A stretch of DNA of 45,278 bases, taken from NCBI RefSeq assembly GCF_030518155.1, contig NZ_JAULRU010000610.1:1-45278 (forward strand). The letters run 5' to 3'. This document shows positions 172 to 29,491 of the stretch, in pieces. Position 1 is the stretch's first letter. Each line of letters opens with the position of its first letter. A program made the position numbers and the translations under genes. Under the pieces are notes generated by a model. It saw only the letters and a program-made list of their open reading frames with translations, was not told the origin of the DNA and did no database searches. Source of the DNA: Gilvimarinus gilvus. Its GTDB lineage: Bacteria; Pseudomonadota; Gammaproteobacteria; Pseudomonadales; Cellvibrionaceae.

Positions 172-2787
172 CTACGGATTTTGACAATTAATCAAAGCAC
201 TTGCAGCTTTATTTTTTTCAATTCGCACATTAGCAAATGACATGTCCAGCTCGCCCTCAGTATAGATAGTGAATGGGCGCAAGACCTGTGTCAAAAACTC
301 TTCCGGCGGCTGTTGCACACCAAAGTTCTCACCCGATGTCGGGAAGCATTTAAGATCAACCGACAACGTCTGCCAGCCATTGCCGACCAAATACTCTTTC
401 ATGCCTTCGGTCATATCCAGATCTGACGCACAGTAAGACCCACAACCAAAGCGAAGATAAGTCGTTTGGGTTGGTGCTGAATCCACTTTAATATCGAAAA
501 TCAACGCTGCCTGATCTTCCACGTAGCCGGTCCAGTCCTGGCGCTCGTCAACAAACAAGGCTACGTGCCCAGGGCCTTGTCCGTTAAAAACTACCTGACG
601 CGCGTCCTCCTGTTCATTGCGGTCTACTGCCGTCACCGTCACTGTAGAGGTGCTCATGGTTTTTCCTTCCATCACCAACCGGTCGTTTTCTGCACCCACG
701 GCCTCAATGCCCCACGGCTCTATCGGCCGCCGGTCAAACAGCGGCAGTACATCAGAGGTTGCACTAACGGTGAGGCCCTCCTCCGATAGGTCATCACCGA
801 GTGTATCTGTGTCGGCATAGGTCAAACCAAAGCCATAGGGAAAGAGTGGGTCATAGTTTTCGTCGCCCACATTAAGCGGTACTTGATCGGGTGTCTTTGG
901 CCAGGAGAATGACAGTTTACCCGACATGGGCACGTTAATATCGCCATCATTATTGCGAAATAACACGTCAGATACACCGACACCTTCGGTTCCCGGCTGC
1001 CAGATAACGACAAATGCATCGGACGCGTTAAGCTCGCGGTTTACCCAAAGCGGACGACCGGTAATAAACAAAGCGACCACCGGAATGTTGGCGTCTTTAA
1101 AGGACTGCAACAGTTCAAGGTCGTCAGTTTTTCCGCGTTTATAAGCAAGATTAGAAACATCGCCCTGCATTTCAGCGTATGGATCTTCGCCAAATACGAC
1201 AATGGCGACATCAGGTTTGGTTTCAAAGCTTCCATCTTCACTGAGTATTGCCTCACCGCCGCCAGCATTAACCACGGACTCAATACCATCAAAAACTGAG
1301 GTTCCACTGGGGAAATCTGAATTTTTGTTGCCAGTACCCTGCCAGGAAATAGACCAACCCCCTGCTTGCTTACCTATATTATCGGCGCCATCACCTGTGA
1401 CCAATACTTTTGCTTCGCGCGACAACGGTAGTAAACCGTCGCTATTTTTTAGCATTACCAGCGATTGCTGCACCGCTTTACGGGCGATAGCCCGATGCTC
1501 TGGCGCACCTAATAATTCAGCTTTGCCTGCCAGAGGCCTAGACGAAGGCTTGCCCGCTTCAAACAAGCCGGCACGAAGTTTGACTCGCAGAATACGGCGT
1601 ACAGCATCGTCAATGCGGGCCATGGTGATGTCGCCATCTTTAACGTTCTGCACAGTGTTTTGGTAGAGCTCTTTCCAATCCGCATCGGGCGCCATAAACA
1701 CATCCAAACCGGCGTTCACAGATTGCGGGCAGTTGGTTGCCGTACACCCCTGAACAAAGCTGTGCCCGGCCCAATCACCCACGACCAAACCATCGAAGTT
1801 CATTTGACCTTTTAACACATCGTTGAGCAGGTAATCATGGCCGTGCATGCGCTTACCATCCCAGCGCGTAAATGACGCCATTACGGCCTGCACGCCCGCC
1901 TCCAGGGCGGTAAAATATCCGGCGCCGTGAACATCGCGCAGATGTAATTCGTCACCTACGGTGTCACCGCGGTCAATACCGTCTTTGGTTCCGCCGTCAC
2001 CAATAAAGTGCTTTGCTGTTGCGAGAACACGTCCTTCGCCCATAAAGTCCTCACCAGCCTCCCCCTGCAGGCCGCGTACCATTTCACCGGCATAGGCCCC
2101 TACTATCTCAGGCGCCTCCGACCAGGACTCGTAGGTCCGCCCCCAGCGCTCATTGCGAGCCACGGCCACAGTGGGAGAAAAGTCCCAATCAATACCCGTC
2201 ACCAATAATTCGCGGGCCGTCGCCCAACCGATTTGTTTCAGCAACTCTGGGTTATTCGCTGCACCCAACGCAATGTTGTGAGGGAACAAGGTTGCTCCCA
2301 CTACATTCCCGACGCCGTGTACGGCATCCGTACCCCACATAATCGGAATACCTGCGCGTCCGTTTGATTTATCAATAGACGCCAGATAGAACCCGTCGGC
2401 AAGCGCTAACCAATCTTCAACCGATGCGTACTTATCACCCGAGGGAAAAGATCCACCGCCGTTGAGGACCGAACCGACATGGTATTTGCGTACATCATCA
2501 GGGGTGAGATGCCTAATCTCTGGCTGAATCATCTGTCCCACTTTTTCTTCAAGGGTCAGTGTCTCTATTATTTGATCAATGCGCGCCTCAATGGTCGCAT
2601 CTTGTTTTACTTCGCTTTGAATGTCGGGCCATACGACCGGCGCCTGGCTACTTGCCGAGGGACTAGATTCTGTAACGGCATTACCCGTTTCGGGGGCCAC
2701 CGACTCAGTGTTAGGCTTCTGGCATGCTGCTAGCGACGCCACAATGGCACTGGCCAGTGCCAATCGCCGGAGAGTTGTTATCGCCAT
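172..2787 (-). CDS. Glycoside hydrolase family 3 lipoprotein (exo-beta-1,3/1,4-glucosidase, ExoP-like)
   Basis: This is a predicted exo-acting beta-glucosidase that removes glucose from beta-glucan oligosaccharides, anchored to a membrane by lipid. The ATG at 2787 is preferred because AGGAG lies just upstream; a longer frame to 2922 lacks such a site. The 871-residue product starts with a lipoprotein signal peptide ending in a lipobox (Leu-Ala-Ala-Cys, Cys22). The family 3 barrel spans roughly residues 65-420. It includes KHFIGDGGT (259-267), and the Gly-Asp-Trp motif places the catalytic nucleophile at Asp338. The alpha/beta sandwich domain follows. The last 190 or so residues form an extra beta-rich, galactose-binding-like domain as in marine ExoP enzymes (family knowledge). 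The gene is last in the minus-strand uptake cluster, about 330 bp after its neighbour, so it may have its own promoter. Family confidence is high; exact substrate is inferred. Confidence 0.93.
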   Translation of the reverse strand: MAITTLRRLALASAIVASLAACQKPNTESVAPETGNAVTESSPSASSQAPVVWPDIQSEVKQDATIEARIDQIIETLTLEEKVGQMIQPEIRHLTPDDVRKYHVGSVLNGGGSFPSGDKYASVEDWLALADGFYLASIDKSNGRAGIPIMWGTDAVHGVGNVVGATLFPHNIALGAANNPELLKQIGWATARELLVTGIDWDFSPTVAVARNERWGRTYESWSEAPEIVGAYAGEMVRGLQGEAGEDFMGEGRVLATAKHFIGDGGTKDGIDRGDTVGDELHLRDVHGAGYFTALEAGVQAVMASFTRWDGKRMHGHDYLLNDVLKGQMNFDGLVVGDWAGHSFVQGCTATNCPQSVNAGLDVFMAPDADWKELYQNTVQNVKDGDITMARIDDAVRRILRVKLRAGLFEAGKPSSRPLAGKAELLGAPEHRAIARKAVQQSLVMLKNSDGLLPLSREAKVLVTGDGADNIGKQAGGWSISWQGTGNKNSDFPSGTSVFDGIESVVNAGGGEAILSEDGSFETKPDVAIVVFGEDPYAEMQGDVSNLAYKRGKTDDLELLQSFKDANIPVVALFITGRPLWVNRELNASDAFVVIWQPGTEGVGVSDVLFRNNDGDINVPMSGKLSFSWPKTPDQVPLNVGDENYDPLFPYGFGLTYADTDTLGDDLSEEGLTVSATSDVLPLFDRRPIEPWGIEAVGAENDRLVMEGKTMSTSTVTVTAVDRNEQEDARQVVFNGQGPGHVALFVDERQDWTGYVEDQAALIFDIKVDSAPTQTTYLRFGCGSYCASDLDMTEGMKEYLVGNGWQTLSVDLKCFPTSGENFGVQQPPEEFLTQVLRPFTIYTEGELDMSFANVRIEKNKAASALINCQNP

Positions 2788-3116: not shown

Positions 3117-3812
3117 CTAAATACAGTCGATAAAAGTACTAATAGTAAGCCGACCCGTGCGCGGACTACTATCTGGTATAAAGCTCGAAGGTATTGAACC
3201 ACTGTGTAAATTTCGTCGACGGTAAATAATAAGTCGATTGAAAATACCTTTCTGCTCTCCTATCCGGGTAAACAAAGCTGTGTCACCGTTTATATAGCCT
3301 TGCTGCGGAATATTGTCAGTGTCATTTTCACTTTCCAGTGACTTATAATAGGCAACTTGCCGCTCTTCATCGATATATTCGAAACCGGTCTTATTATGAC
3401 GATAGAATGAGGTCCCCCCCAGATCTCCTTTAAACAAATAAAATACAGCCGCCAATTCATCCTGCTTTGGCGAATCAAAATGCGGGATACGCTGCAACAG
3501 CTTAAGTTTATCCGAGGGCACCGTCACAATGGAGTATTGGCATAGCGACAAAGCAAGCTTCGATCCCTGCAGATCAAACACCTGCTTTAATTGTCGCCCT
3601 AATGTACGTAACAGCAGAGACTGAAACTCAACGGGCACTGGAGCTCGTATTCCGGGAAAAAATTCCGAATATTTTGCAAACTTTTGCTGAGCGGCATGTT
3701 CCACCATAAGATCAGGGTTTTGCAGAAAATCATCAACGACCAGTAGCGGCGAGCGCTCTTCGCCCAACTCATAAACACTGGTAGCCATATTAGGATTTAA
3801 CGATAATTGCAT
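3117..3812 (-). CDS. DUF6445-family protein, oxygenase-like
   Basis: This 231-residue soluble protein has no established function. It resembles DUF6445 proteins found next to halogenases and TonB receptors. His111-Phe-Asp113, His203 and Arg221 (in RLTISTF) are spaced as the HxD...H...R iron and 2-oxoglutarate ligands of the double-stranded beta-helix oxygenases. I infer an Fe(II)/2OG-type fold from this. The ATG at 3812 has an AGAG stretch upstream; a GTG two codons earlier (3818) is the alternative. The gene begins just after the halogenase stop, so the two are probably translationally coupled. A hydroxylase acting with the halogenase on one substrate is possible, but nothing in the sequence names the substrate. 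Confidence 0.75.
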   Translation of the reverse strand: MQLSLNPNMATSVYELGEERSPLLVVDDFLQNPDLMVEHAAQQKFAKYSEFFPGIRAPVPVEFQSLLLRTLGRQLKQVFDLQGSKLALSLCQYSIVTVPSDKLKLLQRIPHFDSPKQDELAAVFYLFKGDLGGTSFYRHNKTGFEYIDEERQVAYYKSLESENDTDNIPQQGYINGDTALFTRIGEQKGIFNRLIIYRRRNLHSGSIPSSFIPDSSPRTGRLTISTFIDCI

Positions 3813-3820
3813 ACTCACTC

Positions 3821-5305
3821 TCAGCGCGTGGCCTTGCAGTAATGATTAACAAATTCCTGATGATTTGGCATTTTACTGACAGCCTCAGCTATCGTATTGC
3901 GTGTATTACTTAGGTGGCCTACCAACTCTTCATCTGACATAGTGCTAAATATCGAGTGATACCGTTTTGGTGTGATACCTTGCCCTAGCATCACATGTGT
4001 CCAAGATTCGAGCCGAAACATCTCTTGATCACCTTGAAAAGCAAGGCCATTCTCTCTAAACAATTCAATACGATGGGTCAATGAATCTGGGACATCCATG
4101 TTTTTGCAATAACGCCAAAACTCACTATCTTCACGTTCAGTGGCATGGTAGTGCAATACAATAAAATCGCGAACGTTTTCCAGTTCGGCAATAGCCTGCC
4201 GATTGTATTCATCAATGGCTGTCTGGGTAATACCGTGAAAGGGGAATATTTTCATCAACCTCGTCACCCCGATCATAAACAGATAGATACTGGTGGACTC
4301 CAAGGGCTCAACAAAGCCACTGGAAAGACCTAAGGCGACGCAATTGCGACTCCAAAAAACTTTTCGCCGGCCGGTTTTGTACTTAATAACCCGAGGCTCA
4401 GTTAACACCTTTCCCTGAACATTATCCAAAAGGTGCTGTTTTGCCTGCTCATCAGACATAAACTCGCTACAAAATACGTTGCCATTGCCTACCCTATGCT
4501 GCAACGGTATATGCCATTGCCAACCCGCCTGATGTGCGGTACAGGTCACATAGGGTTTCGCAGGCTCAACTGACTCCGTTTGCACCGCAATTGCGCTATT
4601 ACATGGAAGCCAGTGCGACCAATCCTCAAAAGGGACATTTAACGTTTTATCAATCAATAATCCGGTGAAACCAGTACAATCGATAAATAAATCACCCTCA
4701 ACCACCTCACCTGATTCAAGCTCAAGCGCCTTAATGTCACCATTTTCATGCTGCTGTACGTTCTGAATCTTCCCCTCGATTCGCTTGGCACCGAGCTTTT
4801 CACTGAATTGGCGTAAATACTGGGCATATCGCGTTGCATCAAGGTGGTAAGCGAAGTTAATACGGCCATTTTTAGAGGTAGCAAATTTATTCGCCAATGC
4901 CGCTTGCGCTTCCAGGTTATATTCACCAAAACCCGCATCTATGCCTTTACTTTTACCGTATAACCAAAAGTGCTGGAAATCTGCAAGGAAACTGCTCTGC
5001 CCGGTTGTACCGAACGGGTGGAAGTACTCGTCACCAACCTGCCCCCAATTTTTAAATGAAATCCCTAATTTGAACACGGCCTCAGTAGCGCGCATAAACT
5101 CTTGTTCATCGACACCAATCAGCGAATGGAAAACACGCATAGGAGGAATCGTAGCCTCGCCGACGCCCACCGTACCAATTTGCTCAGATTCAACAAGCAC
5201 AACATCCACAAGCTCACCAAGCTTTTTAGATAAAGCTGCCGCAGCCACCCAACCTGCGGTGCCACCACCAGCAATCACTACTTTTTTTACAGCATTATTC
5301 TGCAA
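3821..5305 (-). CDS. Flavin-dependent tryptophan-halogenase-family protein
   Basis: This 494-residue flavoprotein is expected to use FADH2, oxygen and halide to halogenate an aromatic substrate. It has the N-terminal FAD-binding GGGTAGWVA (residues 13-21), the GVGEATIPP stretch (47-55) and the halogenase signature Trp-x-Trp-x-Ile-Pro at 262-267. Lys79 lies where the catalytic lysine of PrnA lies, and Glu336-Ser337 in EPLEST match the second conserved catalytic site. All family hallmarks are therefore intact. The start is TTG at 5305, preceded by GAGGA with a 6-nt spacer. Related enzymes next to TonB receptors (for example BrvH and Xanthomonas halogenases) act on indole-like compounds in vitro, but their natural substrates are not known. 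It sits between the cupin and DUF6445 genes in one apparent operon. Confidence 0.92.
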   Translation of the reverse strand: MQNNAVKKVVIAGGGTAGWVAAAALSKKLGELVDVVLVESEQIGTVGVGEATIPPMRVFHSLIGVDEQEFMRATEAVFKLGISFKNWGQVGDEYFHPFGTTGQSSFLADFQHFWLYGKSKGIDAGFGEYNLEAQAALANKFATSKNGRINFAYHLDATRYAQYLRQFSEKLGAKRIEGKIQNVQQHENGDIKALELESGEVVEGDLFIDCTGFTGLLIDKTLNVPFEDWSHWLPCNSAIAVQTESVEPAKPYVTCTAHQAGWQWHIPLQHRVGNGNVFCSEFMSDEQAKQHLLDNVQGKVLTEPRVIKYKTGRRKVFWSRNCVALGLSSGFVEPLESTSIYLFMIGVTRLMKIFPFHGITQTAIDEYNRQAIAELENVRDFIVLHYHATEREDSEFWRYCKNMDVPDSLTHRIELFRENGLAFQGDQEMFRLESWTHVMLGQGITPKRYHSIFSTMSDEELVGHLSNTRNTIAEAVSKMPNHQEFVNHYCKATR

Positions 5306-5354
5306 AACCAGTCCTCACACGTCATCAGTAGGTCATTCAATTCAAAAAATTTAC

Positions 5355-6389
5355 TTATCGGTTAAGAAAATTCAAAAGCATGGCACGCAACATTCTGCCC
5401 TTTTCTTTATCAATCTCACCAAGATATCCTCGCGCCTGTTCCGGCAAGTGCTCTGTTGCCCGCTCTGCATCATCAAAGATGTAATAATCGAAAACATGTT
5501 TCCACGCCAACTTTTCGTGCTCTGGCCTGCCGCGTAAACTTAACATTGCATGATACAAGACATCTTTTGCCGGACCCATGTGCCGTGCAGAGTTACTCCA
5601 CCAATAGTTTACCAAAACATTAAACTTGCTTTGCGACTCCACCTGATGCCACCACATACTGGGCAGGTACAACGCATCACCCGCTTCAAGTTCAGCGACT
5701 TGGCCATGTTTAATAGCCTCAGCAAACCTAGGGTACTTTGTGAAATCAGGATTACCAAAATCCACCATACTTAATGGCTGGCCACCTGGTGTGGGCGTTA
5801 ATGGCCCGGGGTAAAGATTCGCAATTTGATCTGGTGGAAAAAGTGTAAATTGACGTTCCCCTACCACACAACAAGCCAAGTTATCGGGAGCATCATGATG
5901 GCAACAAGCAGTGGTACGATTCCCAATCCAAATACTCACGCGAACGTCTTCTAAGGGAGAACTGGCAGCAGGCCTCGGTATACCAATATCATTTTCGGCT
6001 CTGAAGCCTGGGAAATGTGTGTCTATAAGATTCGATGCAATATAGTACGAGCTGGGGCTTTGCTCAGCAAAACTTGCTTCGATTAGGTCCAGAGCCTCAT
6101 CCACTTGCATTTTTTGCGTCTGAAAATTTAGCTCTGTAGCATCTGCACTATAGAAAAAACGCCCCTGAATGGAAGGTTCACCAATGCAAATAACGGAGGG
6201 CCGACCATTATAAAACGACTTCAAATACTCAATAGCGCTACTGTCCGACTGCCTCCCTTTCTCGACAAGCTTCCAGTCATTAACCAGCCCCTTGATGACA
6301 GCGGGCTCATCAGACGAGAAAATACTGTCGTCTATTTGGCCAACCCGCTTAGGGTTAACGATTTTAGTTTTTTGGGTTATAGGCAACAT
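5355..6389 (-). CDS. Cupin-like (JmjC/cupin_8) Fe(II)/2-oxoglutarate oxygenase
   Basis: The 344-residue protein resembles FIH/JmjC-type cupin_8 oxygenases, which hydroxylate proteins or small molecules. His164-His-Asp166 provides the HxD iron ligands, and the distal ligand is His248 in LPSMWWHQVES. The sequence LYLPSMWWH is typical of the fold. RQFTLFPP (179-186) is the strand after the HxD motif and is common in the family. The ATG at 6389 has only a weak ribosome site. The gene lies 49 bp before the halogenase and 36 bp after sapC on the same strand. Genes of this type recur beside TonB receptors and halogenases in Caulobacter and Xanthomonas relatives (family knowledge). The substrate is unknown. 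Confidence 0.88.
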   Translation of the reverse strand: MLPITQKTKIVNPKRVGQIDDSIFSSDEPAVIKGLVNDWKLVEKGRQSDSSAIEYLKSFYNGRPSVICIGEPSIQGRFFYSADATELNFQTQKMQVDEALDLIEASFAEQSPSSYYIASNLIDTHFPGFRAENDIGIPRPAASSPLEDVRVSIWIGNRTTACCHHDAPDNLACCVVGERQFTLFPPDQIANLYPGPLTPTPGGQPLSMVDFGNPDFTKYPRFAEAIKHGQVAELEAGDALYLPSMWWHQVESQSKFNVLVNYWWSNSARHMGPAKDVLYHAMLSLRGRPEHEKLAWKHVFDYYIFDDAERATEHLPEQARGYLGEIDKEKGRMLRAMLLNFLNR

Positions 6390-6425
6390 AATGTCATTCT
6401 AACAAGTTGAAAGACCATCCTGACA

Positions 6426-7154
6426 TTAACTCAACTGTCTATTTTTGATATCTATCAACTTTCTAATATTTGTCATTGATGCAGTAACCGCATACGCCAA
6501 CGGCAAAAAGCCCAACTTACTCAGCTTTTCCAGTTTTTCACCTTCCAGCTGCGCGAGCTTTTCTTCATTGATCGTATAATGCCCCGATAATTGATATTTT
6601 TCGCCACTATGCAAATCAAATTCAATATTGACAGGCTCGATCAAATCCATCTCCAAAAAGATTCTGAACATAAGATCTTGCGAGGCCACACCTTGGTGAA
6701 TAACTTTCAAAAGGTTAGCGACGTGCTCAAGATAAGGGCTATTCCCACCGTGCTCCAAAAACAGAGCGTGCCCATCCTGATGACCCACTTTAGCATGATC
6801 CAAATCAATATGAATCATTGCCTCATTGGATTCACCTGAACTTTGAGATTGTATTCCGATCAAAAAAGGACCTTTTGCAACAGCCGCAGGAATATAATTG
6901 GCAGCCCAGCCAGACTCACTCCCTGAATCCAAGAATAGATTTTCGCCTTGATTTAACCCTAAAAGTGCAATGGACTGATATTTTTCAGTTTTTTTATTCA
7001 ATTTAAATAAAATAGGATACTCTTTTTGCAATTCAACAAACTCTGTTGGAAAAGCCAAAACACTCCCTACATTATCACCAAACTCAGCACCAAAGCGTGC
7101 AAGCACCTTTAAATCCTGATGAGATACATTATTCAATAATACGTTATTTGCCAT
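6426..7154 (-). CDS. SapC-family protein
   Basis: The product is a SapC-like protein of 242 residues, a family named after a Campylobacter fetus surface-layer protein. No signal peptide or membrane segment is visible, so it is probably cytoplasmic or peripheral. The start at 7154 (MANNVLLNN) fits the family; AAGGTG lies about 13 nt upstream, and the longer frame to 7229 would run into the terminator-proximal leader. The body contains the family-like FLIGIQSQ and the acidic stretch MIHIDLDHAKV. Its role is not known. In other bacteria it is a regular companion of TIGR01782-type TonB receptors, cupin oxygenases and tryptophan-halogenase-like proteins, and the same set is present here. Confidence 0.88.
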   Translation of the reverse strand: MANNVLLNNVSHQDLKVLARFGAEFGDNVGSVLAFPTEFVELQKEYPILFKLNKKTEKYQSIALLGLNQGENLFLDSGSESGWAANYIPAAVAKGPFLIGIQSQSSGESNEAMIHIDLDHAKVGHQDGHALFLEHGGNSPYLEHVANLLKVIHQGVASQDLMFRIFLEMDLIEPVNIEFDLHSGEKYQLSGHYTINEEKLAQLEGEKLEKLSKLGFLPLAYAVTASMTNIRKLIDIKNRQLS

Positions 7155-7230
7155 TGTTTCAATTCTACACCTTAGAAAATTATTGGTTATCAAAGCAGGC
7201 ATGCTCCGCAATGGTAATTCCTGCGCCAAT

Positions 7231-7258
7231 AAAAAAGCCGCTTTGCAGCGGCTTTTTT
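7231..7258 (-). terminator. Rho-independent terminator between the TonB receptor and sapC
   Basis: AAAAAAGCCGCT at 7231-7242 pairs with AGCGGCTTTTTT at 7247-7258 across a 4-nt loop. A GC-rich stem is flanked by A and T runs, so it is symmetrical and could act both ways. On the minus strand it lies 45 nt after the receptor stop and 77 nt before sapC. It should cut most receptor transcripts. The downstream genes then depend on read-through or on a promoter hidden in the short remaining leader. Confidence 0.9.
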
Positions 7259-7302
7259 ACTTATCAAAGATAAGACACTTTAACTAAATGTAAAGCCTTT
7301 AA

Positions 7303-10300
7303 TTAAAATGTATAACGCGCACCAACTTGATAACGTGGAGCCAGGTCGTACATATCCCACATCATGGCTTCGTTACGGCCGTGAGAACGGCTGTTTTCAC
7401 CAGTGATGTTAATACCTTCAAAGGATAAAGACAAACCATCGATGATTTCATAACTTACGTTAAGATCGATTTGCGAGTACGCCTCGATATAACGCGGGTT
7501 ACCAAATCCACCACGGTTAGTCTCATTCAAGTATTCATCACGCCAGTTGTAAGCAAGACGAACCTGGAAGCCGTAGTTTTCATACATACCCACCAAGTTA
7601 GCAGTATCACTCAAACCAACCAGAGCAAACTGAGAATCAGAAGGATCGCCCAGATTATCGAAGCTTACATCACCACGCACCAGCGTATAGTTGGCCTGAA
7701 TACCAAAACCGGTCTCGCCAAAGAAGTGCTGTATAGCAAATTCAGCACCGTGGATTTTGGCTTCACGACCATTATTTGGTGTGCTGGTTCTGAAGGTGTA
7801 AACCGGGTCATCACCGTTTGCGATAGGATCCCAGCCCGCTTGCTCAGCCAGGAACAGGTTTTGGTCCGCAGTACCTGTGTACACAGCGCTGCCAAACTCA
7901 GCTTGCCACTCAGAGCTGCCTTGCGCAAACTCGTTCCAGATGAACTGACCAAGTAGATTATCGTCGTTAAGACTCAAACCCGCTGCCGCCAAGTCACTAG
8001 CCGCCTGTTGCGCACGAGGACCAGCCGTTACGTCACGAATACCACCAAGCAGGTCATCGCGGTTTACAGTCTCCGAGCCGAGGAAGTTCATTACGTTCTT
8101 CTCGAAGACCCCAGCAGACACATAGCTGGTATCACCGTAATACCACTCCAACGACAAATCGAAGTTAGTGGATTCCAGTGGCAACAGGCCGGGGTTTGAA
8201 GAGCTAGCAGTGGGAACTGCGCCTAGCAAGGTTGAACCGCCGCCAGCACCAAAGCCAGACGCCGACACACCCAAACTATTCAGACCCGCACGGGCAATGG
8301 TTTTGCTATAAGAGAAGCGACCAATCAGATCTTCCTGGATGTTCAGGGTAAGATCGAAGCTAGGCAGCAGGTTGTCATAGCTCTCTTCGGCACTGGCCAA
8401 ATTGGACTCTACGGTTGGATCCACACGAATAGCAACATCGTTATTGGATTCCCAAATAGACCGATAGCGAGCGGCCAACGAGCTAGAGAACACATCGGTC
8501 TGCTCATAGCGCAAACCGGTCAGAATTGCGAAAGGCATATCGCCTAACTCGCCATTCAACTCAATCTGGAAGTAAGCCGCTGCAGTATCTTCCTGCACGA
8601 GGTTGTCAGCAGTTTGGGTCATATCAACGGGTATGATACCGTCGTAGCGATCATACGTTTGAGCTTGCTCGTACATCGCTACGGGGTCGCCAATAAAGCC
8701 GTGACCATCGCGAGGTGACCAGTCTTCAAATTCGCCCTGTATGTCAAAAGGCTCAACAATACCAACGAACTCACCAGGGTAGCCACCATTCCAGTTACCC
8801 AGAGCAACGTTTTCCGCTGCATAGTTCAGGGTATGAGATTCCATTTCACGGGTTTCTACACCAAAATCAAAGCGACCATTGTCAAATTCATAACTGGCGT
8901 CCAATTTAACTTGGGTAACCGCTGACTTTTGATCCGCTTGACGCAGGTTAAACATGGTAGAGCTGATATCACCGGGGTCACGCGTACCGTCCCGATTAAC
9001 TGGGAAACCGGTGTTACCACCCTTGCTCTCATCGTATTGGTTCTGATACGTTGGGAACTCAGCACCGAACCACCATTCGCGAGAAGAAACACTTGGGTTA
9101 GCCAGCGCCATACGCACTGAACCCGCACCATAAGGGCCGGTACCGCGGCTGTGCATTTCCGAATCATGCACGTCCAGAACCACACTAAATTCGTCGCTAA
9201 CCTGGAAGCCCAGATTCACACCGAAAGATTCCAGCGTATTGGTTTGGTTTGCGTACTGCTGCTCGTGACCCTCGTCAATACCATTGGCGTAAGTCTCGGT
9301 AGCGTAAACCATGGTGGCGATGTCTTGGTCGTCAAAAGTGACGGCCTGAAGATTATCCCCCTGCTGCATCCACTGACCGGATTGACCCAAATGGCGCTCG
9401 ATTTGGTTTTCAGCGAAGGTGTAATCCACTGTGCCGGTTATACGATCTGTAGGCGCAAACTGTACAGTCAGTTGAGCGTTATCACGGGTACGCTGGGTAT
9501 CGGTGAACTCATAGCGCAAGTCGTAAAAGCGCGAGTAATACTGGCCTTGATCCGGAGCATTTGTTACGTCTACGTCAACGTTATTCCAGGCTCTATCAGG
9601 ATCTGTAATATCATTCCACTCATAGATACCCCAGTCATTAACTGTGGCGCCCACGGTGCCCGAGTCACGCTGCTGGTGGCTGGCACTCAAGGCAACCCCA
9701 AAAGTACCGCTGTCGTTAGAAAAGCTGAACATGCCCGACACTTCGGGAGTCACATCATCGCCTGCGCGATTGGAGGTATCCATTACCGCTTTACCGCCAA
9801 CACTTGCGGTGAAGCCAGGGTTATCCAGAGGACGTGTGGTCTTCAGGTTAATAGTTGCACCAATACCACCAGTGGTAATGGATGCTTTACCGGTTTTGTA
9901 AACTTCAACGCCACTCACACCTTCAGATGCCAGGTTAGCGAAGTCAAAGGCACGTGAGCCGCCACCGTCACCGTTGAAGGTAGAAGCGGAAGGCATGGTA
10001 CGACCGTTCAAGGTAACCATGTTGTTGCCGGCACCAAAACCACGAACGGTTACTTCTGAACCTTCGCCGTTGTTACGACTGATGGAAACACCGGTAATAC
10101 GCTGAAGAGATTCAGCCAAGTTGGTATCGGGGAATTTACCAATGTCTTCTGCTGAAATCGCATCTACAACACCGGCTGAGTCACGTTTGATATCCATTGA
10201 TCGCTCGAGCGACGCGCGGATACCGGTTACTACAACTTCTTCAAGCATGCTCGCGTCTTCTTGTGCCAAAGCTTGGGTTGAAAACCCAGTCATTGCACAT

Positions 10301-10353
10301 GATGCGACCGCTGAAGCAATAAGCTTACGCTTAAAGTTGGTTTTTTTATACAT
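7303..10353 (-). CDS. TonB-dependent outer-membrane receptor (TIGR01782-type)
   Basis: This 1016-residue receptor should import a ligand, probably an oligosaccharide, across the outer membrane using TonB/ExbBD energy. The start at 10353 has AAGGAG upstream; an in-frame ATG at 10395 lacks one. A Sec signal peptide (about residues 1-31, ending ALAQ) is followed by a TonB-box-like LEEVVVTG. The plug domain follows, with DIGKFPDTNLAESLQR and a VRGFG motif. A long 22-stranded-type barrel follows, ending in Phe as outer-membrane barrels do (RYTF). The EEVVVTGIRASLERSMDIKR start and overall length match the Xanthomonas/Caulobacter-type receptors. It is the first gene of the cluster and is preceded by a long operator-rich region. 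The nearby GH3 enzyme suggests a beta-glucan ligand, which is inference only. Confidence 0.95.
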   Translation of the reverse strand: MYKKTNFKRKLIASAVASCAMTGFSTQALAQEDASMLEEVVVTGIRASLERSMDIKRDSAGVVDAISAEDIGKFPDTNLAESLQRITGVSISRNNGEGSEVTVRGFGAGNNMVTLNGRTMPSASTFNGDGGGSRAFDFANLASEGVSGVEVYKTGKASITTGGIGATINLKTTRPLDNPGFTASVGGKAVMDTSNRAGDDVTPEVSGMFSFSNDSGTFGVALSASHQQRDSGTVGATVNDWGIYEWNDITDPDRAWNNVDVDVTNAPDQGQYYSRFYDLRYEFTDTQRTRDNAQLTVQFAPTDRITGTVDYTFAENQIERHLGQSGQWMQQGDNLQAVTFDDQDIATMVYATETYANGIDEGHEQQYANQTNTLESFGVNLGFQVSDEFSVVLDVHDSEMHSRGTGPYGAGSVRMALANPSVSSREWWFGAEFPTYQNQYDESKGGNTGFPVNRDGTRDPGDISSTMFNLRQADQKSAVTQVKLDASYEFDNGRFDFGVETREMESHTLNYAAENVALGNWNGGYPGEFVGIVEPFDIQGEFEDWSPRDGHGFIGDPVAMYEQAQTYDRYDGIIPVDMTQTADNLVQEDTAAAYFQIELNGELGDMPFAILTGLRYEQTDVFSSSLAARYRSIWESNNDVAIRVDPTVESNLASAEESYDNLLPSFDLTLNIQEDLIGRFSYSKTIARAGLNSLGVSASGFGAGGGSTLLGAVPTASSSNPGLLPLESTNFDLSLEWYYGDTSYVSAGVFEKNVMNFLGSETVNRDDLLGGIRDVTAGPRAQQAASDLAAAGLSLNDDNLLGQFIWNEFAQGSSEWQAEFGSAVYTGTADQNLFLAEQAGWDPIANGDDPVYTFRTSTPNNGREAKIHGAEFAIQHFFGETGFGIQANYTLVRGDVSFDNLGDPSDSQFALVGLSDTANLVGMYENYGFQVRLAYNWRDEYLNETNRGGFGNPRYIEAYSQIDLNVSYEIIDGLSLSFEGINITGENSRSHGRNEAMMWDMYDLAPRYQVGARYTF

Positions 10354-10452
10354 GAGGCTCTCCTTGATTATGCTAGGAAGATTATTATTTAGCATCTCGC
10401 TTAAATCCCAAGTACCGTTTTATTTGTCTTACTGGACACGCTTGGCACTTGG

Positions 10453-10478
10453 TTTTGCAAATCGGAATTTGCAAATTC
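10453..10478. promoter_or_regulatory. Paired TTTGCAAAT motifs including a perfect palindrome
   Basis: GAATTTGCAAATTC at 10465-10478 is a perfect 14-bp palindrome. TTTGCAAAT occurs within it (10468-10476) and again at 10454-10462, 14 bp apart. The pair lies 100-125 bp before the receptor start codon, a good place for an activator or repressor. I do not recognise the cognate regulator. Confidence 0.4.
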
Positions 10479-10856
10479 TCTGTGTAAGTGGGCTTCAGCA
10501 TATGGGCCACTGAACCGTGTAATTTATAATCGTATATCCCGCTTACCCTATCTATATCGTTGCTTTTTTAACATTGTTATTTTTAACGTTTTAGTCTTTT
10601 TGACTTTAAGCTGGATTCAATTTACGCCATTCTTTAGGTCGATTCAACAATTTTTATTGCCAGCCTCTCGAGCATCTCTGCTGGCGTCACACTCAAATTC
10701 GACACTCAACGCTCAAGCCATGCGATATCAACGTGCTCCGACAACAACCAAGTAACATTAGCTTATCTGCAACAACACGCAACCCACATCAATCTATTGG
10801 GCCAATTTACGGCATGCCAAAGAGGTATTCAATACTCTCTTTAACTCCCCCATCGA

Positions 10857-10870
10857 TGTAACCGGTTACC
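10857..10870. promoter_or_regulatory. LacI-family-like operator, site 1 (TGTAACCGGTTACC)
   Basis: The inner 12 bases GTAACCGGTTAC are a perfect palindrome centred on CG, the typical shape of a LacI/GalR-family operator. It lies about 500 bp upstream of the receptor start. Confidence 0.5.
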
Positions 10871-11078
10871 CACCCTATGTTAACAATAACGTAAACAATA
10901 TCTTCGCAACTTTAAACACCTAGCCTCTCTACTGAGGGAAACATCAATAACCCGCAAACAACATTGAAACTCGTGCCAGACACAAAACAAAAAACCAAGA
11001 GAAACCCTGTAACATACTGTTTAAAAAGGATAAAAACTTCTCGATGGTGGAAACAACAGAGCTCCCTCTTTGCGGAAA

Positions 11079-11092
11079 TGGTAGCGCAACCA
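11079..11092. promoter_or_regulatory. LacI-family-like operator, site 2 (TGGTAGCGCAACCA)
   Basis: Twelve of fourteen positions are palindromic around a central CG. The TGGTAGCG half-site is like that of LacI-type regulators of sugar genes in Xanthomonas and Caulobacter relatives (family knowledge). Confidence 0.5.
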
Positions 11093-11156
11093 TTACACCT
11101 CAACACGAAGAGCACCCAATGAATTGGCCTTTGTAATTTTTTTGTTAAAATTTAAC

Positions 11157-11170
11157 TGATAACGCTACCA
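11157..11170. promoter_or_regulatory. LacI-family-like operator, site 3 (TGATAACGCTACCA)
   Basis: Ten of fourteen positions are palindromic around a central CG. It shares the CGCWACCA half with site 2, 78 bp away. Confidence 0.45.
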
Positions 11171-11213
11171 CAGTGGATCAATGATACTCGCGATAACACT
11201 CCCAGCCGAGAAG

Positions 11214-11252
11214 TGTCTCTCAAGTCAGGTAATTCAAGGGCTCTGAGAGACA
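11214..11252. repeat. 9-bp inverted repeat TGTCTCTCA / TGAGAGACA
   Basis: Perfect 9-bp arms at 11214-11222 and 11244-11252 are separated by 21 bases. No T tract follows on either strand, so a terminator is unlikely. It may be a two-half-site binding site or an RNA hairpin downstream of uvrC. Confidence 0.4.
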
Positions 11253-11282
11253 TTTACCTAATAAGGTGGTCTTTGCAAAAAA

Positions 11283-27135: not shown

Positions 27136-27274
27136 CCCCTGCTCTGCCGTGATTATTGGGTTTTTATTCAAATAACCGAAATGCCAGGCGTATTTTCTAA
27201 AGCTCACGCCTGCCGCCACACACGATGAAACCTGTTAAACTGACCCCACTACGTTGAGACTTAGAGGCGATGGA

Positions 27275-29491
27275 ATGAAAGGGACTATGGGTATTAAATG
27301 GGTAGCAATGCTTTGTCTAGCGTTGAGTGCATTTAGCGTGCATGCCATTGACTGGCCACAGCAAATTACCGCAAAAGAAGGCTCTGTTGTCGTCTACCAA
27401 CCACAACCAGAATCTATGCAAGGCAACCGCCTTAGCGGGCGAGCCGCCATGTCGCTTGAACTGAAGGGTCAACCCGCCCCCATTTTCGGTGCCTTTTGGT
27501 TTAACGCGCGGATAGACACTAATCAAGACGCGGGCACTGTGTTCGTCCGCGACCTTAAAGTGACGAAAGTACGCTGGCCAGATTCCAGCGAGGCCGACGA
27601 GGCAAGGTTCACCGAAGTGGTTGAATCGGCCCTTCCCCAGGCGGGCTTTGTGGCAAGCCTTGACGCGCTGTCAGCCAGCCTGGAAAGTGCCGAGATTGAA
27701 CAAAAAAGCCTAACCGAGTTGAAAACCGACGCTCCGGTTATTCTGTTTCGCGACGAGCTTTCGGTACTGCTAATGTTCGACGGCGAGCCGCGATTTAGTG
27801 ACGTCGAAAATAGCCACTATGAGCGCGCTCTAAATTCCCCCTTTGTGGTGGTGCGCGATAAAAAAAGTAAAATAACGTATCTGAGCAGTGGCAATTTTTG
27901 GTACAGCGCCGCCAAGCCTACTGGCCCTTACACCAGCATAACCAACCCGCCAGCCGATTTGGTGAAAATGCTACCCAAAACGGAAGAAAAGCCAGCGGAG
28001 GGTGCAGTAGCGCCTGCTATCGTTGTCGCAACGCAGCCCACCGAACTTATCGTCACGCAAGGTGAGGCCCGCTGGAAGAGTTTAGCGGGTGGCAAATTGC
28101 TCTATGTTGAAAATACTGAAACGCCCTGGTTGCGCGACATTGAAGCCGGAAAAATGTACTTGCTGCTGTCGGGGCGGTGGTTCAGCGCCAACAATGAAAA
28201 TGGTCCCTGGCAATTTGCTCGCCCCGATCAATTGCCCAAAAGCTTTAGCGAGATTCCGCCAGACTCAGATATTGGCGGAGTGCGTACCGCAGTCGCTGGT
28301 ACCGATGAGGCCGAAGATGCCATGCTTGATGCCGCCATTCCGCAAACAACGGCGGTCAAGCGCAGTGAAGCGACGCTGGAGGTAAGCTACGATGGCAAGC
28401 CGGAATTTGCGAGCATTGACGGCACTACCGTCGCTTACGCTGTCAATACGGGCGCGCAAGTCTTAAAAATAGACAATCACTTTTACGCGGTAGACAACGG
28501 CGTATGGTTCGAGTCGAATAAGGCGACCGGCCCATGGACAGTGGCCGACAATGTTCCCAGCGAAAAAATCAAACAAATTCCACCGAGTTCACCGGTTTAC
28601 AACACAACGTACGTAGAAGTGTATGACTCGACACCCGATGTTGTTTATGTGGGTTATCGGCCCGGCTATTTGTGGTCTTTCCCCTATTACGGCGTGCCCG
28701 TCTACGGTACCGGCTGGTATTACCCTCCCTACTGGGGCGCAACGTACTACCCTCGCCCACCTACCTGGGGATTCAATGTAGGCTATAACCCCTGGACCGG
28801 CTGGAATTACGGCGTGAGCTGGAGCAATGGCTTTTTTAGTTTTGGGGTGAGCTGGGGCGGCGGCTGGAGCGGCCCGTATCGCCCCTGGGGTTGTTGTCAT
28901 GGCTGGTATGGTGGCGGCTACCGCCCTCCTGTCGTGATCAATACCGGCAACATCAATATTGGCAACAACATCAATGTAGGCAACCGCGTTAACGTCAACA
29001 ACCGGTTAAACAACACCTCCATTAAACGCAAGACACAGGCAAAAAATATTTACCAACGCCCAGGCAATGTAAAACGCAATGCCAGCTCCGCTACTATTCA
29101 CAATCACCTTAAACAAGCTAAAACGCTAAACACACGCGACAACAATGTGTTTGCCGATAAACACGGCAACGTCGCCCGCAAAGTTGGCGATAATTGGCAA
29201 ACTCGTGATAATGGTAGTTGGAATAATCATCAGGACCTCACCATTCAAGAAGAGCGTATTCCGCAAAGACACGACAATATCGGCAGCCAAAGCAAAGAAA
29301 TGCCTCGCCCGCAATTTGACAATCACTTGCAAAGGGACAGGCAATACAACCGACCAAGCACGCGCCCCACACTGGACCGCGGTGGCCTTAATCGTGATTT
29401 TGGTGCGCGCCAACGCGGTATGAACCGCTCAATGAATCGCCCCATGAACCGACAAATGCCGGTGCGCGGCGGTGGCGGCTTCCGCCGTTAG
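27275..29491 (+). CDS. Exported Tyr/Gly/Trp-rich protein with GPW repeats
   Basis: The 738-residue protein has a signal peptide (about 1-24, ending SVHA). The ATG at 27275 is chosen because AGAGG lies 7 nt before it; a TTG at 27254 also opens the frame. The middle carries three similar units: SGNFWYSAAKPTGPY, SGRWFSANNENGPW and DNGVWFESNKATGPW. Between about 450 and 560 the chain is extremely rich in Tyr, Trp, Gly and Pro (GVSWGGGWSGPYRPW, HGWYGGGYRPP). Then come Asn-rich INTGNINIGNNINVGN and a basic Arg/Asn/Gln-rich tail ending MPVRGGGGFRR. Proteins of this type are sometimes annotated as carbohydrate-binding family V/XII; I cannot confirm a function. It may be a surface or matrix protein. 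Confidence 0.85.
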   Translation: MKGTMGIKWVAMLCLALSAFSVHAIDWPQQITAKEGSVVVYQPQPESMQGNRLSGRAAMSLELKGQPAPIFGAFWFNARIDTNQDAGTVFVRDLKVTKVRWPDSSEADEARFTEVVESALPQAGFVASLDALSASLESAEIEQKSLTELKTDAPVILFRDELSVLLMFDGEPRFSDVENSHYERALNSPFVVVRDKKSKITYLSSGNFWYSAAKPTGPYTSITNPPADLVKMLPKTEEKPAEGAVAPAIVVATQPTELIVTQGEARWKSLAGGKLLYVENTETPWLRDIEAGKMYLLLSGRWFSANNENGPWQFARPDQLPKSFSEIPPDSDIGGVRTAVAGTDEAEDAMLDAAIPQTTAVKRSEATLEVSYDGKPEFASIDGTTVAYAVNTGAQVLKIDNHFYAVDNGVWFESNKATGPWTVADNVPSEKIKQIPPSSPVYNTTYVEVYDSTPDVVYVGYRPGYLWSFPYYGVPVYGTGWYYPPYWGATYYPRPPTWGFNVGYNPWTGWNYGVSWSNGFFSFGVSWGGGWSGPYRPWGCCHGWYGGGYRPPVVINTGNINIGNNINVGNRVNVNNRLNNTSIKRKTQAKNIYQRPGNVKRNASSATIHNHLKQAKTLNTRDNNVFADKHGNVARKVGDNWQTRDNGSWNNHQDLTIQEERIPQRHDNIGSQSKEMPRPQFDNHLQRDRQYNRPSTRPTLDRGGLNRDFGARQRGMNRSMNRPMNRQMPVRGGGGFRR

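Follow-up and report, generated by a model that had tools for sequence, protein, structure and literature searches.

A recurrent gene set with a BrvH/Xcc4156-type halogenase behind TonB-Xanth-Caul receptors, and its possible role in receptor maturation

Within the wider halogenase group, the flavin enzyme QhpG acts on a tryptophan in a peptide, as does MibH. Closer to the present case are BrvH (PDB 6frl) and Xcc4156 (PDB 6y1w), for which the available portions of the two papers report an open pocket, give the native substrates as unknown and consider a peptide substrate possible (PMC7336383, PMC5945002); free tryptophan is not taken, indoles are, and peptides might be, according to the Xcc4156 paper (PMC7336383). 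Both papers treat lone enzymes, with 'TonB' occurring 0 times in either, and in the same portions neighbouring genes for a receptor, SapC or oxygenases are undiscussed. Here we describe a halogenase of this type in Gilvimarinus gilvus, where it stands in a set of five genes on the minus strand of contig NZ_JAULRU010000610.1, ordered TonB-Xanth-Caul receptor, SapC, Cupin_8, flavin halogenase and DUF6445, then a gene of glycoside hydrolase (GH) family 3. The stretch analysed, hereafter the window, is the entire contig of 45278 bases. The set is real, recurrent and centred on the receptor, and we propose tentatively, with a probability of roughly 0.4, that the four genes following the receptor gene serve its maturation by modifying the receptor itself.

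Sugar-uptake loci around TonB-Xanth-Caul receptors are known, and they likewise combine a TIGR01782 receptor with glycosidases. The literature searched, in which subscription journals are largely uncovered, gives no account of a role for halogenase, SapC, cupin or DUF6445 in such loci, nor of the five-gene set or its job; earlier work may exist in those journals.

A recurrent set centred on the receptor

The original prediction described five collinear genes and a GH3 glucosidase, and this description is confirmed: the five genes stand collinear at the predicted position, on the minus strand, with the main Pfam match of each protein lying well over its cut-off. The grouping is not due to chance, as the same order recurs on host contig C332, with one extra halogenase, and uninterrupted in 28 of 62 DUF6445 loci from public named genomes; 2 more of these loci have it with one additional halogenase. 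The exact order was found in Gilvimarinus, Paraglaciecola, Rheinheimera, Neptunicella, Marinimicrobium, Pseudoxanthomonas, Oleiagrimonas, Rhodanobacter and metagenome-assembled genomes, and these loci are not independent, many being from Rheinheimera. A search for co-occurrence had also been proposed, and receptor, SapC, Cupin_8 and halogenase indeed all lie within 8 kb in 34 of the 62 DUF6445 loci. Receptor and halogenase are present in 50; 5 loci are partnerless, 4 have a single partner, and in 3 the anchor gene was lost to an overlapping frame. Of the 62 loci, 19 hold a GH3 resembling that of the window, with 45% or more over 800 aligned columns.

The host genome itself contains 16 full-length halogenases, 19 receptors over the TIGR01782 cut-off, 3 SapC, 3 DUF6445 and 4 Cupin_8 proteins, together with a more distant flavoprotein on C792 that is split across two matches. 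A TIGR01782 receptor stands no more than 5 kb from 15 of the 16 halogenases (probability about 8e-19 under a rough uniform model), and 9 of the 19 receptors have a halogenase. Among these nine loci, SapC and DUF6445 occur in 2 and a cupin in 3. The sole host halogenase with no TIGR01782 receptor nearby (L063:9182-10702, on C185) faces a GH20 gene.

Four further multi-receptor genomes gave 16 of 19 halogenases within 5 kb of a receptor, so that 31 of the 35 full-length halogenases are that close to a TIGR01782 receptor in the five receptor-rich, halogenase-bearing genomes including the host; the further genomes were chosen from a survey of the class for having receptors or halogenases. A halogenase at a sugar-uptake locus, which the original prediction had called unexpected, is therefore the usual situation in receptor-rich genomes of these bacteria that have such halogenases. 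Another receptor-rich genome, G165, gave zero halogenase matches. The class survey of 229 genomes found SapC in 32 and DUF6445 in 6, four of them strong, and in two of these four (G143 and G167) DUF6445 stands apart from the set; counts from surveys that scored at most six, three or two candidates per genome are lower bounds. Overall, receptor and halogenase persist at loci where SapC, cupin or DUF6445 may each be present or absent, and SapC also occurs in another context with no halogenase, so that the single fixed pathway that had been envisaged is not supported.

Enzymes, SapC and a candidate tryptophan

The window halogenase has a full-length Trp_halogenase domain, with GxGxxG present as GGGTAGW, catalytic K79 and E336, and WQWHIP at the WxWxIP motif; among 111 called copies, the catalytic Lys is kept in 108 and the Glu in 107. 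It aligns almost without gaps, at the sequence level, to open-pocket Xcc4156 (6y1w), and shares with BrvH and Xcc4156 the full-length match, the catalytic Lys and Glu and the WxWxIP motif; at the second halide-site position it has a Ser, as reported for BrvH. This position is non-Gly, being Ser339 in the window, and 67 of 77 copies of that type likewise have Ser here; its meaning, and the Ser of BrvH, are covered in PMC7336383. Judged from its sequence, the enzyme is of the BrvH/Xcc4156 type, with a putative open pocket and putative halogenating activity. It differs from QhpG and MibH, which belong to different operons, and its NCBIfam match to QhpG is weak (32 bits versus a cut-off of 240).

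Two other kinds of halogenase copy were seen at related loci. Arrays of three halogenases have a degenerate middle copy that has lost parts of GxGxxG and the catalytic Lys or Glu (L059:7233-8738, L199:7061-8476, L233:5644-7239), and such copies are perhaps inactive partners. A second type, often directly between receptor and SapC (e.g. L197:7721-9274, L204:7670-9226), mostly has WxWDIG for WxWxIP, which is kept in 9 of 34, and Ala at the 339 position.

The closest solved chains to the cupin are FIH, the HIF asparaginyl hydroxylase (E 2e-17), then JMJD5 and JMJD7, all of them protein hydroxylases with the same JmjC/Cupin_8 core and HxD...H residues, the latter conserved in 47 of 47 cupins. The window protein is bacterial, unlike these relatives, and the similarity lies mostly over residues 157-267 of 344. 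We describe the cupin as FIH-like, with a putative protein-hydroxylase function. DUF6445 has no solved sequence relative; in an alignment of 51 sequences (50 of 58 called plus that of the window, near-duplicates mostly excluded), its H113, D115 and H205 are invariant and R223 nearly so. A search with its predicted model (predicted local distance difference test score, pLDDT, 96.4) returned 46 PDB matches at E of 0.001 or below, with moderate template-modelling (TM) scores of 0.33-0.48 on the query. Of these, 45 are Fe(II)/2-oxoglutarate enzymes, and one (3bvc) is uncharacterised; they are mainly natural-product enzymes, with PHD2 and P3H1 among them. We assign DUF6445 as a probable Fe(II)/2-oxoglutarate oxygenase with a predicted double-stranded beta-helix fold.

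SapC gave a confident AlphaFold2 model with no fold match in the PDB or a viral library, which is no proof of a new fold; 43 of 49 called sequences plus that of the window were aligned, near-duplicates being mostly excluded. Elsewhere in the class, 38 SapC places comprise 6 halogenase sets, 19 with an open frame of 1200 codons or more no farther than 3.5 kb away, and 13 with neither. The giants carry a two-partner-secretion domain in 2 of the 4 scanned, and ShlB- and FecR-type neighbours were found; in Azospirillum, SapC lies directly behind a filamentous haemagglutinin gene. These loci hold the same Pfam family and likewise adjoin a gene for a large exported protein, but differ from the window set in that no halogenase or cupin was called within 5 kb at any of the 19. 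Since a large exported protein is common to both contexts, we suggest that SapC serves such proteins. Examples of SapC with no halogenase, near two-partner-secretion giants or ShlB- or FecR-type genes, are L131:9498-10235, L136:9830-10609 and L277:6902-7627.

For the receptors, 73 halogenase-linked and 31 unlinked sequences were aligned, after several exclusions: 10 of 120 receptor calls scored too low or were too short, 1 of 74 linked receptors was a duplicate, and 5 of 36 unlinked ones had too little downstream sequence. Residues are numbered from an alternative start, the ATG at 10395, which adds 14 residues. In the tree, the receptors of SapC sets, together with a few others, form essentially one clade. 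Among the 61 positions conserved in at least 93% of this clade, the sequence around Phe556 and Trp342 varies most, Trp342 being the second most isolated. In the clade, 57 of 58 receptors carry Trp342 and one has Tyr in its place; of the unlinked receptors, 6 of 31 carry it. A later survey for similarity to the window's receptor, scoring at most two candidates per genome, gave 17 matches (6 already in the set, 1 C-terminal fragment excluded, 10 added), and all 10 added receptors have Trp342: 7 with a halogenase, 2 cut by a contig end and L268. So do four of four plasmid receptors, from the 5 of 31 plasmid records examined. Short turns of a type usual on the periplasmic side occur before and after Trp342, at residues 314 and 399, and for this reason it probably lies on the outer side of the barrel.

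Besides Trp342, the residues Phe556, His410 and Asn279 are nearly clade-specific. A comparison by cupin presence singled out His410 (42 of 42 receptors with cupin, 5 of 17 without) and also Asn279. As a cupin target His410 was rejected, since it arises once on the tree and is kept after cupin losses; L274 and L276, which have no annotated cupin, retain it too. The comparison by DUF6445 presence pointed to Asp788, with at most nine receptors lacking DUF6445.

Layout and expression of the locus

The features of the locus are collected in Table 1.

Table 1. Positions of the gene set and associated features in the window
Feature	Positions	Strand	Basis
TonB-dependent receptor, TonB-Xanth-Caul subfamily	7303..10353	-	TIGR01782 662 bits vs cut-off 310; Plug PF07715 and barrel PF00593
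Codon of Trp342 (328 counted from 10353), candidate halogenase target	9370..9372	-	Conservation
Terminator-like hairpin between receptor and SapC	7234..7255	-	Hairpin search
SapC family protein	6426..7154	-	PF07277 222 bits; AlphaFold2 pLDDT 94.2
Cupin_8/JmjC-like putative oxygenase, FIH-like	5355..6389	-	PF13621 252 bits; H164, D166, H248
Flavin-dependent halogenase (putative), BrvH/Xcc4156 type	3821..5305	-	PF04820 621 bits, residues 8-457; 6y1w E 4e-171
DUF6445, assigned as probable Fe(II)/2-oxoglutarate oxygenase	3117..3818	-	PF20043 251 bits; H113, D115, H205; fold search
GH3 exo-beta-glucanase-like enzyme	172..2787	-	Closest ExoP, exo-1,3/1,4-beta-glucanase, 3usz E 6e-243

From SapC to DUF6445 the genes are tightly spaced, with gaps of 36, 49 and 2 bases, and the hairpin lies in the 73 bases between receptor and SapC. 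Among 56 gaps of at least 40 bases between a receptor and the next gene, 36 contain such a hairpin with a T-run, versus a mean of 0.9 in 40 shuffles. The other junctions of the set have hairpins in 1 of 52, 0 of 41 and 0 of 44 cases, and with median gaps of 9, 30 and 7 bases they are too short for a fair control, a purpose for which we took shuffled sequences and unlinked receptors. Transcription of all five genes as one operon, which was considered, is weakened by the hairpin, and the five genes are perhaps not one evenly expressed unit. A terminator behind the receptor suits receptor maturation, for which much receptor and little enzyme would be made.

The GH3 gene, whose product has an N-terminal lipobox by eye, is likely a separate transcription unit, and the contig ends just past it. 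Inspection by eye revealed no signal peptide in SapC, cupin, halogenase or DUF6445. On the other side of the receptor, no inner-membrane transporter or regulator was recognised among the subset of genes scanned. The roughly 860 bases upstream of the receptor (10396-11253) have no frame of at least 100 codons on the receptor's strand and no Rfam match; the window as a whole has neither Rfam matches nor a transfer RNA. A 745-codon open frame at 27254-29491 (+) has no Pfam match at 1e-5.

What the set may act on

The sugar enzymes beside the receptors vary. In the host, halogenase-linked receptors neighbour GH95 (C101), a GH120-like enzyme (C594), GH20 (C657), an ExoP-like GH3, or cyclomaltodextrinase, amylase and GH15 (C264), and at C302 and C464 no glycosidase was present among the genes scanned; on named plasmids, they adjoin GH16 and GH3 in Sphingobium and agarase and beta-galactosidase in Catenovulum. 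Unlinked host receptors neighbour GH88, GH43, esterases, phytase, sulfatase, rhamnogalacturonan lyase or alginate lyase, and the contrast of neutral versus charged ligands that this would imply is no more than suggestive. The variety of the linked loci bears on the proposal, made in the original prediction, that an aromatic portion of what the receptor imports is modified; a glycan-borne phenolic group would be one example. The set does stand within sugar-uptake loci, some related to plant polymers, but the adjoining hydrolases indicate many ligands with no aromatic ring, maltodextrin and agar included, the window GH3 is of the exo-beta-glucanase type, and none of these enzymes indicates an aromatic ligand. 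As they differ from locus to locus, a shared aromatic ligand is improbable, and we give this explanation little weight.

A small molecule common to the receptors, such as a signal or an outer-membrane metabolite produced or changed by the enzymes and taken up or sensed by the receptor, is a stronger contender, although we consider it unlikely. Flavin halogenases and many Fe(II)/2-oxoglutarate enzymes act on small molecules, and this explanation also accommodates the top fold matches of DUF6445 and the lone halogenases described below; against it, no biosynthesis gene set was recognised at the loci examined, where the neighbours are mainly sugar enzymes, transporters and regulators, and the halogenase group, in the accessible text on it, does not take free tryptophan in vitro. 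The target could also be a different protein encoded at the locus or residing in the envelope, for instance a glycosidase lipoprotein or a TonB-system partner, with SapC as the carrier. SapC does adjoin giant secreted proteins where no such receptor was seen, but among the genes seen none accompanies the halogenase as steadily as the receptor, and the glycosidases vary, which makes this, too, a quite improbable account.

Modification of the receptor itself was already raised in the original prediction and fits better than the ligand idea, given the recurrence of the set beside differing sugar enzymes, while being unproven. We favor it because receptor and halogenase stay together while the sugar enzymes change; because the halogenase matches open-pocket Xcc4156, for which the accessible text reports no use of free tryptophan and possibly use of peptides; because the closest solved relatives of the cupin are protein hydroxylases; because SapC adjoins giant exported proteins at 19 of its 38 other places, and a haemagglutinin in Azospirillum; and because of the distribution of Trp342, including 14 of 14 receptors added later. 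In our working model, an unfolded receptor precursor would arise in the cytoplasm, and SapC, possibly recognising or holding exported proteins, would deliver it to as many as three oxygen-using enzymes. An exposed aromatic residue, most plausibly Trp342, would be halogenated (or oxidised) by the flavin halogenase with its putative open pocket, and other side chains would be hydroxylated by the FIH-like cupin and DUF6445. After these modifications the receptor would be exported and inserted, and Trp342, on the outer side of the barrel, could alter sugar binding and perhaps uptake. The analysis itself establishes the gene set and its recurrence, the families of the enzymes, their intact catalytic residues and the conservation of Trp342; the substrate, the part played by SapC, the sequence of events, the place of Trp342 in the barrel and any effect on uptake are inferences.

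Several observations weigh against receptor maturation. No receptor modification has been observed and no chemistry shown. G034, G091, G196 and G213 have one halogenase each, none beside a receptor, and the top fold matches of DUF6445, such as OkaE, AndA and SnoN, belong to natural-product enzymes instead of protein hydroxylases. Of the linked receptors that fall outside the clade, only 10 of 15 have Trp342, 11 of 31 unlinked receptors have some Trp in the same stretch, and L268 keeps the residue with no halogenase or SapC in view. The clade with Trp342 is essentially a single branch, and its association with the halogenase therefore counts as little more than one evolutionary event. Furthermore, Phe556 is as isolated as Trp342, so both may simply bind sugar, and sugar binding accounts for the conservation of Trp342 as well as modification does. 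The hairpin also follows unlinked receptors (21 of 34); it is thus the receptor's own terminator, and the enzymes would need read-through or another promoter.

The full version of the proposal, in which Trp342 is halogenated before export, the FIH-like cupin and DUF6445 hydroxylate the receptor and SapC acts as carrier, would make the set a dedicated modification system for TonB-dependent receptors and the receptor the native substrate of BrvH/Xcc4156-type halogenases; in this complete form we regard it as doubtful. Enzymes of this type have been crystallised and assayed, yet, in the accessible text, with no native substrate assigned, and a fixed protein neighbour with one invariant Trp narrows the substrate question to a single peptide. 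If the proposal is true, bacteria would tune their nutrient receptors by halogenation, of which we found no description in the literature searched.

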